This document shows, piece by piece, positions 58,861 to 64,000 of a DNA stretch of 64,000 bases. Both the position numbers and the translations under genes were made by a program. Numbering within the stretch: the stretch's first letter is position 1; the number at the start of each line of letters is the position of its first letter. The stretch lies in assembly GCF_040214835.1 (NCBI RefSeq), contig NZ_CP157874.1:4552501-4616500 (forward strand). The letters are read 5' to 3'. The DNA comes from Pseudomonas asiatica. GTDB lineage: Bacteria > Pseudomonadota > Gammaproteobacteria > Pseudomonadales > Pseudomonadaceae. Below the pieces are notes generated by a model. The model ran no database searches. It was not told the DNA's origin and was given only the letters and a program-made list of their open reading frames with translations.

Positions 58861-60900
58861 ATGTCCGAGCCACGTCAGATTCTCGTCACCAGCGCCTTGC
58901 CCTATGCCAACGGATCGATCCACCTTGGCCATATGCTCGAGTACATCCAGACAGACATGTGGGTCCGCTTCCAGAAGCTGCGCGGCAACCAGTGCATCTA
59001 CGTCTGCGCCGACGACGCCCACGGTTCGGCCATCATGCTGCGCGCCGAGAAGGAAGGCATCACCCCGGAACAGCTGATCGCCAACGTCCAGGCCGAACAC
59101 AGCAGCGACTTCGCCGACTTCCTGGTGGACTTCGACAACTTCCACTCCACCCACAGCGAAGAAAACCGCGAGCTGTCGGGCCTGATCTACGCGCGCCTGC
59201 GTGACGCCGGGCATATCGCCACCCGTTCGGTGACCCAGTACTTCGACCCGGAAAAGGGCATGTTCCTCGCCGACCGTTTCATCAAGGGCACCTGCCCCAA
59301 GTGCGCGGCCGAAGACCAGTACGGCGACAACTGCGAGAAATGCGGCGCCACCTACGCGCCCACCGAGCTGAAGAACCCTAAGTCGGCGATCTCCGGCGCC
59401 ACCCCGGTACTGCGTGATTCCCAGCACTTCTTCTTCAAGCTGCCAGACTTCCAGGCCATGCTGCAGCAGTGGACCCGTAGCGGCACGCTGCAGGACGCGG
59501 TAGCCAACAAGCTGGCCGAATGGCTGGACTCGGGCCTGCAGGAATGGGACATCTCCCGCGACGCGCCGTACTTCGGCTTCGAGATCCCGGGCGAGCCAGG
59601 CAAGTACTTCTACGTGTGGCTGGACGCACCAATCGGCTACATGGCCAGCTTCAAGAACCTCTGCGCACGCCGCCCGGAGCTGGACTTCGACGCGTTCTGG
59701 AACGAGGGCTCCAAGGCCGAGCTGTACCACTTCATCGGCAAGGACATCGTCAACTTCCACGCCCTGTTCTGGCCAGCCATGCTCGAAGGCGCCGGCTTCC
59801 GCAAGCCGAGCGCGGTCAACGTGCACGGCTACCTGACCGTGAACGGCGCCAAGATGTCCAAGTCGCGCGGTACCTTCATCAAGGCCCGCACCTACCTCGA
59901 CCACCTGCAGCCGGAATACCTGCGTTACTACTACGCGGCCAAGCTGGGCCGTGGTGTCGATGACCTGGACCTGAACCTGGAAGACTTCGTGCAGAAGGTC
60001 AACTCCGACCTGGTCGGCAAGGTGGTCAACATCGCCAGCCGCTGCGCCGGTTTCATCCACAAGGGCAACGAAGGCGTGATGGTGGCTGGCGATGCCGCAC
60101 CGGAGCTGACCGAAGCCTTCCTGGCGGCCGCCCCGTCGATCGCCGACGCCTATGAAGGCCGCGACTTCGGCCGTGCCATGCGCGAAATCATGGCGCTGGC
60201 CGACCGTGCCAACGCCTGGATCGCCGACAAGGCCCCATGGTCGCTGGCCAAACAGGAAGGCAAGCAGGATGAAGTGCAGGCCATCTGCGCCCAGGGCATC
60301 AACCTGTTCCGCCAACTGGTGATTTTCCTCAAGCCGGTCCTGCCGGTACTGGCTGCCGACGCCGAGGCCTTCCTCAACGTGGCACCGCTGACCTGGAACG
60401 ACCACCAGTCGCGCCTGGAAAACCACCTGCTGAACCCGTTCAAGGCGCTGATGAGCCGTATCGAACCGGCCAAGGTCGAAGCCATGGTCGCAGCCAGCAA
60501 GGAAGACCTGCTGGCCGCCGAAGCCAAGGTCCCGGCCGGCAACGGCGAGCTGGCCAAGGACCCGCTGTCGGCGGAAATCGAGTTCGACACCTTCGCAGCC
60601 GTCGACCTGCGCGTGGCACTGATCGTCAAGGCCGAGGCCGTGCCGGGTGCCGACAAGCTGCTGCAACTGACCTTGGACATCGGTGACGAGCGCCGCAACG
60701 TGTTCTCCGGCATCAAGTCGGCCTACCCCGACCCGTCCCAGCTGGAAGGCCGCCTGACCATGATGGTGGCCAACCTCAAGCCACGCAAGATGCGCTTTGG
60801 CGTGTCCGAAGGCATGGTCATGGCGGCCGGGCCTGGCGGTGAAGAGATCTACCTGCTGAGCCCGGACAGCGGTGCCAAGCCGGGCCAGCGCATCAAGTAA
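58861..60900 (+). CDS. metG: Methionyl-tRNA synthetase
   Basis: 679 aa. Class I synthetase with the HLGH-like signature H21-L-G-H24 and KMSKS at 331-335. The zinc knuckle has C145, C148, C158 and C161 (CPKC and CEKC). The anticodon-binding helical domain follows, then a C-terminal Trbp111-like tRNA-binding/dimerisation domain from about residue 580 ([20 protein letters not shown]). It charges initiator and elongator tRNA with methionine. Single gene, divergent from apbC; REP pair follows. Confidence 0.98.
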
Positions 60901-60915
60901 CAAAACCTGCTGGAC

Positions 60916-61002
60916 CTTGTGGGAGCGGGCGTGCCCGCGAAACTGACTACGCGGTGCATGGCACCGGCGTTGCCGGTGTTCGCGGGCACGCCCGTTCCCA
61001 CA
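60916..61002. repeat. Inverted REP pair
   Basis: Left TTGTGGGAGCGGGCGTGCCC then GCGAA; right TTCGCGGGCACGCCCGTTCC then CACAA. GCGTGCCC variant loops; one base change in the right copy (GTTCC for GCTCC). It separates metG from the rnfA-like gene. Confidence 0.88.
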
Positions 61003-61065
61003 ATGACTCCGGCACCTTGATGCCAAACCCGGACAATCGCCCCGATTCCCGGCTATCGTCATCTC

Positions 61066-61614
61066 ATGAGCGACTACATCCTGGTCCTGATCAGCGCTGC
61101 GCTGGTCAATCACCTGTGCCTGCAACAACAGCCATTCCCCAGGCTGCACCTCCACGTGCACGGCCTCGCCTGCGCACTGTGCATTGCCTTGGGCGTGACC
61201 GGCGCACAACTACTGGTGCGCGGGGTGCTTGCCCCGCTGCAGGCCCAGGACCTTGCCCTGTTCCTGTTGTTGCCCTGGCTGGCCGGGCTCGCCTGGGGCG
61301 TGCCATGGCTGCTGACAAGGTGGCGCCCGAGCTGGCCGGTGACGCAACTGCCCGCGCTGCTGTTGAGCAACGCGGTAGTACTGGGGTTGGCCCTGCAACA
61401 GGCAAGCGACGACAGCACATGGCTCGCTACCTTGCTGCAAGGCCTGCTGGCCGGCGGCGGCTTCTGGCTGGCGTTGGTGTTGTTCGCCGACCTGCGCCAG
61501 CGCAGCGCTCATGCCGACGTCCCCAGGGCAATGCGCGGCCTGCCCATCGAAGTGCTTGGGGCCGGGGTAATGGCCATGGCGTTTTCCGGCTTCAACGGGC
61601 TGTTCGCCCAATGA
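61066..61614 (+). CDS. rnfA: RnfA-like (Rnf-Nqr domain) membrane subunit, divergent
   Basis: 182 aa, about six hydrophobic helices. The N-terminal DYILVLISAALVNHLCLQQQ matches the RnfA/RsxA start (xDYxLxLIxxxLVNN), and LPALLLSNAVVLGLALQQAS matches the second half-repeat (canonical TTNCAVLG). The iron-ligating cysteines of those half-motifs (GLCPF, TNCA) appear to be missing here. In normal Rnf complexes RnfA and RnfE together hold the cluster that crosses the membrane. First gene of the short A-D-G-E operon. The start has no clear ribosome binding site. Position between metG and an rnfD-like gene supports the call. Confidence 0.75.
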   Translation: MSDYILVLISAALVNHLCLQQQPFPRLHLHVHGLACALCIALGVTGAQLLVRGVLAPLQAQDLALFLLLPWLAGLAWGVPWLLTRWRPSWPVTQLPALLLSNAVVLGLALQQASDDSTWLATLLQGLLAGGGFWLALVLFADLRQRSAHADVPRAMRGLPIEVLGAGVMAMAFSGFNGLFAQ

Positions 61615-62585
61615 CCGCCAAGCCCGACCCGCGGCTACGCACCAGCATGGGCCTGGTGTTGCTGGCCTGCGTACCTGGCCTGCTGGCGCTGTTCTGGCTG
61701 CATGGCTGGAGTGTGCTACTGAACCTGTTGCTGTGCGCCAGCGCCGCGCTGCTGTGCGAGGCGTTGTTGCTTACCTTGCGAGCACAACCGCTGCGCACGG
61801 CGCTGAACGACGGCAGCGCGCTGGTGACCGCCGTGCTGCTGGCCGCCGCCCTGCCCACCCTGGCACCCTGGTGGTTGCCTGTGGTCGCAGCCAGCGTTGC
61901 CATCGGCATCGGCAAGCAGGCCTTTGGCGGGGTCGGGCGCAACCTGTTCAACCCGGCCATGGTCGGCTACGCCTTCGTGCTGCTGAGCTTCCCGTTGCAG
62001 ATGAACCATTGGCCGGGGCCGACACCAGGCCTGCTCGACAGCCTGCAGCTGGTGTTCGCCGGCGGCGAGCAGATCGATGCCTGGGCCCGGCCGACACTGC
62101 TCGACGGCCTGCGCCACAACCGCAGCCTGACCATCGATGAACTGTTCGCCAGCCACCCGGGCTTCGGCAGCATCGGTGGGCAGGGCAGCGAATGGGTCAA
62201 CCTGGCGCTCCTGCTGGGCGGCCTGTTTTTGCTGCAACGCAAGGTGATCAGCTGGCATGCGCCGGTTGGCCTGCTGGCAGGGTTGTTCCTGTTCAGCCTG
62301 CTGGGCTGGAATGGCTCGGGTTCGGACTCCAACGGCTCCCCCCTGCTGCACCTGTTCTCCGGCTCGACCATGATGGCGGCGTTCTTCATTGCCACCGAAC
62401 CGGTGTCCGGCCCCCGGCAGGAGTGGGCGAAGCTGGGGTTCGGCCTGGGGGCGGGCCTGCTGATCTACCTGATCCGCACCTGGGGCAGCTACCCGGACGG
62501 TACGGCGTTCGCCATCCTGCTGATGAACCTCATGGCGCCGAGCCTCGAACGCCTGGCTTTGCAGCGCCAGCAGGTTGCACGATGA
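61611..62585 (+). CDS. rnfD: RnfD-like flavoprotein membrane subunit
   Basis: 324 aa, about nine helices. Conserved RnfD pieces include ALNDGSALVTAVLLAAALP, IGIGKQAFGGVGRNLFNPAM and GYAFVLLSFP, plus SGSTMMAAFFIATEPVSGPR and WGSYPDGTAFAILLMNLMAP. The residue that takes covalent FMN in other RnfD proteins (S/T-x-A-T) is replaced by the context ARPTLLD; the Thr is kept but the flanking residues are not. The start overlaps the rnfA stop (ATGA). No rnfB or rnfC lies before it. Confidence 0.85.
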   Translation: MTAKPDPRLRTSMGLVLLACVPGLLALFWLHGWSVLLNLLLCASAALLCEALLLTLRAQPLRTALNDGSALVTAVLLAAALPTLAPWWLPVVAASVAIGIGKQAFGGVGRNLFNPAMVGYAFVLLSFPLQMNHWPGPTPGLLDSLQLVFAGGEQIDAWARPTLLDGLRHNRSLTIDELFASHPGFGSIGGQGSEWVNLALLLGGLFLLQRKVISWHAPVGLLAGLFLFSLLGWNGSGSDSNGSPLLHLFSGSTMMAAFFIATEPVSGPRQEWAKLGFGLGAGLLIYLIRTWGSYPDGTAFAILLMNLMAPSLERLALQRQQVAR

Positions 62586-63184
62586 AGCGCCTGGTACGTG
62601 ATGTGGGCCTGTTGCTACTGACCGGGGTACTGGCACTGTCGGCCACCCTGGCCTGGCGACACTGGACCAGCGCGGCCATCGCCGACGCCGAGAAACAACT
62701 GAATAGCCGTCAGCGGCTGGCAGTGCTGCCAGAAGGCAGTTACGACAACCAGCCCCTGGACAGCCCGCTGCCCAGGCCCGCCGCACAGCGGCCAAACAGC
62801 CGTATCCTGGCAGCTTACCGGGCGACGCTGGCAGGCAAGCCGGCCGCCATCATCCTGGTCACCCAGGCCCAGGGCTATGCCGGGCCGATCGTGCTGAGCG
62901 TGGCCATCACCCCGGACGGCCGGCTGATCGGCAGCCAGGTGGTCGAGCAACAGGAAAGCCCCGGGCTGGGTGCACGCCTGGGTGATCCGCAGCTGAACTG
63001 GCTTGGGCAATTTGCCAACCGCCAGTTGGGCGATCGCTGGGCGCTGAAGCGCGACCAGGGCGACTTTGACCAGTTGGCTGGCGCAACCGTGACCTCACGG
63101 GCGGTGATCGGCGCGCTGCAAGAGGCGCTGAGCTACTTCGATGAGCAGCGCAGCGTATTGCTGGAGGGCGGCTCTCATGAATAG
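62582..63184 (+). CDS. rnfG: RnfG-like flavin-binding subunit
   Basis: 200 aa, with an N-terminal membrane anchor and a periplasmic FMN-binding domain. The motif DFDQLAGATVTSRAVIGALQ contains A-G-A-T where [S/T]-G-A-T is usual; the Thr that receives FMN from ApbE is kept. QVVEQQESPGLGARLGDPQL is the conserved RnfG/NqrC segment (E-x-PGLG). In Rnf this subunit passes electrons at the periplasmic face. Overlaps rnfD by four bases and rnfE by eight. Confidence 0.87.
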   Translation: MKRLVRDVGLLLLTGVLALSATLAWRHWTSAAIADAEKQLNSRQRLAVLPEGSYDNQPLDSPLPRPAAQRPNSRILAAYRATLAGKPAAIILVTQAQGYAGPIVLSVAITPDGRLIGSQVVEQQESPGLGARLGDPQLNWLGQFANRQLGDRWALKRDQGDFDQLAGATVTSRAVIGALQEALSYFDEQRSVLLEGGSHE

Positions 63185-63701
63185 GTTCTACCTGCTCGGC
63201 GCAAGCCTGGTGCCCCTGTTGGGCGCCACCCGAACACTGAGCGAAGGCGCCACCATCGGCGTGTGTGCGGTGCTGATGAGCAGCCTTCACCAGCTGTTGC
63301 TGGCCCCCCTGCGCCATCGGCTTGCCACCTGGACCTATGTGCTGGCCAGCCTGCTGCTGTTGGCGGCCCTGGCCAGTTGCCTGCAACTGGCGCTGCGTGC
63401 CTGGCTGCTGCCAGTGGCACTTGCCCTCGGCCACTATCCCGCACTGCTGTGCCTGCAATGCCTGGCCACTGACCACCTGCTGCCCGATCAAGGGCGCTGG
63501 CGCCTGCTCGCCGGCCACCTTTGTGCGCTGCTTGCCACATGCCTGCTGCTCGGCGCCAGCCGCCAATGGTTGGCCGACGGTACCGGCCTGCACCTGGCCA
63601 GTCTGGCCCCGGGCGCCTTGCTACTGCTCGGACTGCTGTTGGCCTTGTACAATCGCCTGCGTCCGGGCCCCGCCCAACCACGTCGTCAAGGAAAGCTCTG
63701 A
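63177..63701 (+). CDS. rnfE: RnfE-like membrane subunit, shortened and divergent
   Basis: 174 aa, about five or six hydrophobic helices; canonical RnfE is about 220-235 aa, so it is shortened. ATIGVCAVLMSSLHQLLLAP and YPALLCLQCLATDHL lie where RnfE half-repeats occur, but the canonical GLCPLLA segment reads LVPLLGA, lacking its Cys. It keeps LAPGALLLLGLLLALYNRLR, like the PPGAF-type C-terminus of RnfE. Position between rnfG and nth equals that of rnfE in P. aeruginosa. Four bases precede nth. Confidence 0.7.
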   Translation: MNRFYLLGASLVPLLGATRTLSEGATIGVCAVLMSSLHQLLLAPLRHRLATWTYVLASLLLLAALASCLQLALRAWLLPVALALGHYPALLCLQCLATDHLLPDQGRWRLLAGHLCALLATCLLLGASRQWLADGTGLHLASLAPGALLLLGLLLALYNRLRPGPAQPRRQGKL

Positions 63702-63705
63702 TTTC

Positions 63706-64000
63706 ATGAATGCCGCCAAACGCCTGGAGATCTTTCGCAGGCTGCACGAAGACAACCCCGACCCGAAGACCGAACTGGCCTACACCACCCCGTTCGAACT
63801 GCTGGTCGCCGTGACACTGTCTGCGCAGTCCACCGATGTCGGCGTCAACAAGGCCACCGCACGCCTGTTCCCGGTCGCCAACACCCCCGAGGCCATCTAT
63901 GCGCTGGGCGTCGAAGGCCTGAGCGAGTACATCAAGACCATTGGCTTGTACAACAGCAAGGCCAAGAACGTCATCGAAGCCTGCCGACTGCTGATCGAAC
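63706..64000 (+). CDS. nth: Endonuclease III, 3' end outside window
   Basis: The first 98 aa: MNAAKRLEIFRRLHEDNPDP, then the conserved PFELLVAVTLSAQSTDVGVN, which is the start of the endonuclease III helix-hairpin-helix fold, and the segment IKTIGLYNSKAKNVIEACRL. Endonuclease III removes oxidised pyrimidines (glycosylase plus AP-lyase). The catalytic Lys/Asp and the FeS cluster lie beyond the window end. It is encoded four bases after the rnfE-like gene, the usual rnf-nth arrangement in gammaproteobacteria. Confidence 0.95.
   Translation, partial: MNAAKRLEIFRRLHEDNPDPKTELAYTTPFELLVAVTLSAQSTDVGVNKATARLFPVANTPEAIYALGVEGLSEYIKTIGLYNSKAKNVIEACRLLIE

Follow-up and report, generated by a model that had tools for sequence, protein, structure and literature searches.

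We analyzed the rnf-like operon in a 64,000-nucleotide stretch of the Pseudomonas asiatica genome (contig NZ_CP157874.1, positions 4,552,501 to 4,616,500), referred to below as the window. Four genes, rnfA, rnfD, rnfG, and rnfE, lie there in this order between metG and nth, and all four are open (Table 1). Adjacent genes overlap: A with D and D with G by 4 nt (ATGA), and G with E by 8 nt. Coordinates and protein families confirm an earlier note on this DNA, made from the sequence alone, which had described this order, location, and set of overlaps; the ATGA shared by rnfA and rnfD likewise bears out its point that neither rnfB nor rnfC lies between them. The note had also placed B and C after A in other operons, and the full loci that we examined (L088-L090 and L092) do run A-B-C-D-G-E.

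Table 1. Features of the rnf-like operon and its surroundings, in window positions
Feature	Position	Strand	Length	Remarks
rnfA	61066-61614	+	182 aa	Pfam PF02508, 8e-13; highly divergent; lacks both canonical [2Fe-2S] cysteines
ATGA shared by rnfA stop and rnfD start	61611..61614	+		spot occupied by rnfB in related operons
rnfD (NqrB/RnfD family)	61611-62585	+	324 aa	PF03116, 4e-91; FMN-Thr column kept, motif drifted to ARPT
rnfG	62582-63184	+	200 aa	FMN_bind, 5.5e-16; AGATVTS flavinylation motif
rnfE	63177-63701	+	174 aa	PF02508, 4e-6; highly divergent; retains one of two canonical [2Fe-2S] cysteines
metG, upstream neighbor	58861..60900	+		ATG at 58861
nth, downstream neighbor	63706..64000	+		ATG at 63706; continues past window end; HhH-GPD domain in full gene
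Inverted repeat between metG and rnfA	60917..61003	.	25 nt	resembles a Pseudomonas repetitive extragenic palindromic (REP) element

RnfD and RnfG passed their NCBIfam cut-offs (348 versus 207 bits and 172 versus 102 bits, respectively). RnfA (67 versus 229 bits) and RnfE (32 versus 213 bits) scored far below theirs, and we therefore regard both as strongly diverged. The window RnfD consists of a single domain (PF03116, residues 8-319), with no NAD-binding domain C-terminal to it. In Foldseek searches, the AlphaFold model of RnfA (mean predicted local distance difference test score, pLDDT, 76.7) matched RnfA/NqrE chains best (9eri_A, E 2.5e-5, template modeling (TM) score 0.69). The RnfE model (mean pLDDT 80.0) had RnfE/NqrD chains as its top match (9eri_E, TM 0.72), with E 0.011 and no match with E under 0.001. 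By fold and family, the four proteins thus belong to the Rnf type, though the match of RnfE is weak. Sequence profiles of A and E relatives recovered the same structure chains, although these matches are not independent because six distant full-type sequences sat in each alignment.

We surveyed 149 same-genus genomes, drawn evenly from the genus. The site between metG and nth holds a full ABCDGE set in 19 genomes, ABDGE without C in 77, ADGE in 12, B alone in 33, and nothing in 8. All 89, 33, and 8 loci of the last four kinds were retrieved, with metG before and nth behind in all except a few ending at contig edges. RnfD of the window type was accordingly found in 89 genomes, 77 with an adjoining rnfB and 12 without, and all 12 ADGE genomes fall within a single putida-like clade, with no RnfB at E<=1e-13 in any of them. 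Lack of RnfC is usual for this operon type: an RnfC match at E<=1e-20 was missing in 82 of the 89 genomes when the ten best candidates per genome were scored. RnfC at 567-643 bits occurred in 20 genomes, the 19 with a native ABCDGE set and G022, which carries a second full cluster in addition to its ABDGE locus. That second cluster (L092) is diverged, lies away from metG-nth, and has one TGA within its rnfB match.

The same arrangement recurs among named relatives. The closest records for RnfA and RnfE come from P. asiatica and P. inefficax, and 31 of 42 RnfD loci belong to the putida group by name or sequence. Within these, 28 lack rnfB and three retain it (P. guariconensis, P. taiwanensis, and P. 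entomophila WZ006). Four open genes of constant length are present in all 12 ADGE operons of the sample and in the 28 named ones. Neither chance nor misassembly can account for ADGE, which was found in 12 of the 149 sampled genomes and in 28 of the 31 named loci from the putida group. Records labeled Pantoea sp. and Arthrobacter (L213, P0116, and P0118) carry putida-group rnf genes and are likely mislabeled or contaminated. In the 33 genomes with rnfB alone between metG and nth (L148-L180), the protein is anchorless with a long C-terminal extension of varied length, and this lone rnfB must serve a job outside an Rnf complex.

A review describes a canonical path from RnfB to an intramembrane [2Fe-2S] cluster held by four cysteines, two from RnfA and two from RnfE, and on through RnfG flavin mononucleotide (FMN) and RnfD FMN plus riboflavin to RnfC (PMC12174285). 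We took the cysteine columns from the conserved cysteines of the four full loci, assigning ligand status from motifs and place, with no structure superposition. The 20 full-Rnf genomes were represented by these four loci, and each of the four has all four cysteines. In the C-less operons (88 RnfA and 89 RnfE scored; RnfA of L146 is cut off), RnfA C26 and C114 were kept in 0/88, RnfE C26 in 0/89, and RnfE C109 in 87/89; the RnfA C26 column holds Asp in 70/88. The earlier statement that the window's set could not work as a normal Rnf holds; the note had not noticed the loss of these cysteines. The flavin attachment residues were kept: the FMN residue of RnfD was Thr in 87/88 (one Ser) and that of RnfG was Thr in 85/88 (three Ser), with L066, where D is split, excluded. 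From these residues and the presence of ApbE, covalent FMN is predicted on both RnfG and RnfD.

RnfB of the C-less operons retains its iron-sulfur cysteines (38/38 examined) but no longer has a membrane anchor. We measured 105 anchorless candidates: 99 have <19 residues before the marker motif, and the remaining 6 have no hydrophobic stretch ahead of it; a strong one is present in 3/3 full loci. Another 5 of the 110 candidates have no marker motif and were left unmeasured.

We then compared the company kept by A/D/G/E. ApbE (PF02424) was found in 117/149 genomes: 19/19 with the full set, 89/89 with A/D/G/E, and 9/41 without, two of the nine having Nqr. This association has a Fisher probability of about 1e-22 when kinship of the genomes is ignored. 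RnfB shows no association with A/D/G/E (Fisher 0.44): of the 130 non-full genomes, both occur in 77, A/D/G/E only in 12, B only in 33, and neither in 8. RseC (PF04246) was found in 20/149, namely the 19 native full-Rnf genomes and one of the 130 others, G123, an ABDGE genome that has RseC yet no A/E cysteines. RseC is not a clean marker of any full Rnf, the exceptions being G123 and G022, whose second full cluster is not accompanied by RseC. RseC has been described as a SoxR-reducing partner with an iron-sulfur-binding motif (PMC11729352) and as a regulator of rnf in Clostridium ljungdahlii (PMC9124969).

The earlier note had allowed that B and C might be encoded elsewhere, and this held for a C homologue and failed for B. 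The window's genome, a single contig of 5.85 Mb with completeness 100, has no RnfB above the cut-off (best 41.5 versus 68.7 bits), and the best matches cover about 31-77 of 190 model positions; we therefore rejected an rnfB encoded elsewhere. One RnfC homologue exceeded its cut-off (383 bits), 1.3 Mb from the window. Its cluster (G000:C1:3310443-3313929; L001, L011; about 3.31 Mb) comprises apbE on the opposite strand, rnfC' (an FMN domain, two 4Fe-4S, and a barrel-sandwich N-terminus), and rnfD', with an AGAT motif slightly off the usual column; A, B, E, and G are all missing from it. Because this homologue sits with its own RnfD' and without any RnfB, no full complex with the window subunits emerges from elsewhere in the genome. 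The cluster occurs in 8/149 genomes; in two of the loci fetched (L095 and L096), apbE does not adjoin rnfC'-rnfD'. The genome has two ApbE genes, the second of which (L147 6959-7957) lies between genes resembling gap and sthA (named by eye). A whole-genome PF02508 search returned only the window's rnfA and rnfE, window rnfG was the only FMN_bind gene found, and the two PF03116 genes are the window RnfD and RnfD'. As PF03116 holds only these two, the genome has no Nqr, and we rejected Nqr as a partner here; NqrF and NqrA were not searched directly.

A tree of MetG plus Nth from 130 loci (L090, L092, L106, and L146 dropped) grouped the 12 ADGE loci with 8 ABDGE and 7 empty loci in one clade of 27 (support 0.995). 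All B-only loci fall outside this putida-like clade. ADGE loci occupy four places, {L048, L056}, {L053, L055}, {L049}, and {L057 plus six of the window's group}, with supports of 0.36-1.0, and rnfB was thus lost in at least four places in the tree. Deep branching and rooting are unreliable because the full locus L089 is placed among ABDGE loci L143-L145, and the tree gives no support to a single origin of the C-less state.

The deletions left traces. We examined 12 B-less operons of the sample and 28 named ones, 40 in all, with at least six genomes in both sets. In 40/40 rnfA ends in ATGA; in 29 its ATG starts rnfD, and in 11 a short stub lies between. The stub gaps have six sizes (9, 12, 39, 51, 75, and 78 nt), every one divisible by three, and the stub therefore starts at the ATGA of rnfA and still overlaps rnfD by the 14 nt found in 58/78 ABDGE operons. 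Six in-frame sizes would arise by chance with a probability of about 0.001 if the frame were free, though the sizes are possibly not fully independent. Several stubs retain the first residues of rnfB (MSLIQRIDA, MSLI, MSL) and its last (HDHG, HGKP, LQxHA); the stub of P. mosselii (L206) has since acquired an internal stop.

The genes that remain are under selection. By the NG86 method, the median ratio of nonsynonymous to synonymous substitution rates (dN/dS) over 15 pairs in the window group was 0.24 for A, 0.14 for D, 0.13 for G, and 0.24 for E, compared with 0.02 for metG and 0.03 for nth. Two more ADGE pairs reached up to 0.29, 0.19, 0.24, and 0.35 for A, D, G, and E, respectively. ABDGE pairs gave 0.36, 0.14, 0.20, and 0.33 in the same clade (four pairs) and 0.21, 0.15, 0.22, and 0.21 elsewhere (seven pairs). 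Constraint therefore acts on all four genes, more weakly than on housekeeping genes, and did not clearly change once rnfB was lost. Neutral evolution, which the earlier note had named as evidence for pseudogenes, is not what the window clade displays, and with open genes and dN/dS well below 1 we rejected pseudogene status.

The reduction of this operon has two stages: (i) in all 89 operons, through one or more events, RnfC and three A/E cysteines are gone, as is the anchor of RnfB where RnfB is present, with RseC missing in all but one genome; and (ii) in the putida-like clade, rnfB was deleted repeatedly and the overlap of rnfD with its preceding gene was preserved. Because the flavin machinery, and not the iron-sulfur machinery, tracks A/D/G/E, we read rnfADGE as a real, selected, stepwise-reduced Rnf derivative, a flavin-only membrane module in which A and E would be a redox-dead scaffold, and give this reading a probability of roughly 0.5. 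The data suggest a working but undescribed flavin-only device in the putida group, and we found no paper on a Pseudomonas Rnf lacking B and/or C in the open-licence PubMed Central (PMC) literature. Of the two answers offered by the earlier note, the first, a reduced complex fed by a different electron source, remains the better type.

We infer the loss of the A/E cluster, the formation of a complex, and the direction of electron flow. The only redox groups left would be flavins, a covalent FMN on periplasmic RnfG and, in RnfD, a covalent FMN and probably riboflavin, with RnfA and RnfE acting as a non-redox scaffold or a dock for RnfG. As the canonical path across the membrane needs the A/E cluster, electrons would enter or leave at the cytoplasmic side of RnfD, most likely passing between some partner there and periplasmic RnfG. 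Flow would probably be outward, to a periplasmic acceptor. There would be no ferredoxin-driven loop through A/E and hence no classical Rnf ion pumping.

Several observations weigh against this interpretation. It names neither donor nor acceptor for the proposed activity. RnfE retains C109 and, in 79/89, C82, so that A/E may still have a role missed by the scaffold idea. The RnfD FMN site has drifted to ARPT in the window clade, and A, D, G, and E are under weaker constraint than metG and nth. The set is absent from 41/149 genomes, 7 of these in the putida-like clade, and is therefore dispensable in some lineages. The glycine pair of the NqrB quinone-site helix, through which we sought an NqrB-type quinone exit, is missing from the window RnfD and likewise from full RnfD, leaving no sign of such an exit. 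The ApbE and RseC associations were computed without phylogeny correction, and ApbE of G034 is in two pieces. In that genome (L066) metG, rnfD, and apbE each appear broken, probably through assembly frameshifts and not biology.

The other answer of the earlier note, a remnant kept for another membrane job, fared less well. As a dying remnant, the operon would be slowly leaving the putida group after losing C, the A/E cluster, and B, with the remaining selection weak or historical. The whole set is gone from seven putida-like genomes among the eight in which metG adjoins nth with no genes between, scraps remain in two empty loci (an rnfB C-terminus with 60% identity over 83 residues in L182, and the last 17 residues of rnfE in L181), and A and E diverge fast. 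We nevertheless consider a dying remnant unlikely given the constant, open genes of the 12 sample and 28 named operons, dN/dS of 0.13-0.24, the in-frame rnfB stubs, and the ApbE that always accompanies the set. Still less probable is that A, D, G, and E transfer no electrons and are kept as a membrane structure, such as a channel, docking, or regulatory complex. This draws on Bacteroides, where Rnf membrane subunits, and not RnfB/RnfC, are reported to be required for toxin entry independently of electron flow (PMC12718326, excerpt), so that an Rnf membrane core can be stable in the absence of B and C; the kept FMN residues and ApbE point instead to flavin redox work. The least probable is a hybrid in which RnfC' and RnfD' join RnfA, G, and E in an NADH-linked complex: the C'D' locus, with its apbE and AGAT motif, does lack A, B, E, and G, and A, E, and G are present somewhere in 8/8 carrier genomes, but it is absent from 8/12 ADGE and 75/77 ABDGE genomes (G022, among the 75, has a separate full Rnf), supplies its own D, and occurs in two carriers (of eight) that have a full native Rnf, and the window genome has no RnfB, nor A/E a cluster for RnfB to reduce. 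Its absence from 8/12 ADGE genomes also led us to reject dependence of ADGE on the C'D' locus as a general rule.

The flavin-only interpretation has a broader form, which we put forward as a tentative and rather doubtful proposal: much of the genus may carry a distinct flavin-only conduit, Rnf minus its iron-sulfur parts, completed in the putida group by rnfB deletion, and RseC may, in true Rnf/Rsx, serve the A/E cluster or insert it, the latter being the role proposed for NqrM with the Nqr cluster (PMC12174285, excerpt). If true, Rnf would have been split naturally within the genus into a flavin half (D, G, and ApbE) and an iron-sulfur half (B, C, the A/E cluster, and RseC). Because RseC vanishes together with the A/E cysteines, its role could be tested in E. 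coli K-12. In public records these proteins appear as RnfA, RnfE, RsxA, RsxE, or 'NADH:quinone oxidoreductase', names that imply a ferredoxin:NAD or SoxR-reducing activity for which the sequences offer no support.

The window set resembles Rnf/Rsx (RnfABCDGE) in its homologous A, D, G, and E, in the same order at metG-nth, in ApbE, and in the FMN residues on G and D; it differs in lacking B, C, three of the four intramembrane [2Fe-2S] cysteines, and RseC. With the ABDGE operon of most other sampled Pseudomonas it shares the A/E cysteine losses, D, G, and the site, whereas the anchorless RnfB of that operon, with its long C-terminal extension, has been deleted in the window's clade. Loss of rnfB is also a likeness to Na+-NQR (NqrA-F), proposed to descend from an rnf operon after such a loss (PMC4014512, excerpt); unlike Na+-NQR, the set lacks an A/E cluster and, in RnfD, the NqrB-type glycine pair, and has no counterpart of NqrF or NqrA, which were not themselves searched for. 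The 'NQR/RNF-like' flavinylated systems (Meheust 2021, PMC8238504; PMC10979944) also combine an RnfG-like with an RnfD-like protein. They have two subunits, with RnfD fused to an NAD-binding domain, and lack both A/E and the FMN threonine of the D part, whereas the window set has A/E, a kept RnfD threonine, and no fused domain. The one-way outward electron flow proposed for them is the nearest published idea to ours, although the subunits differ.

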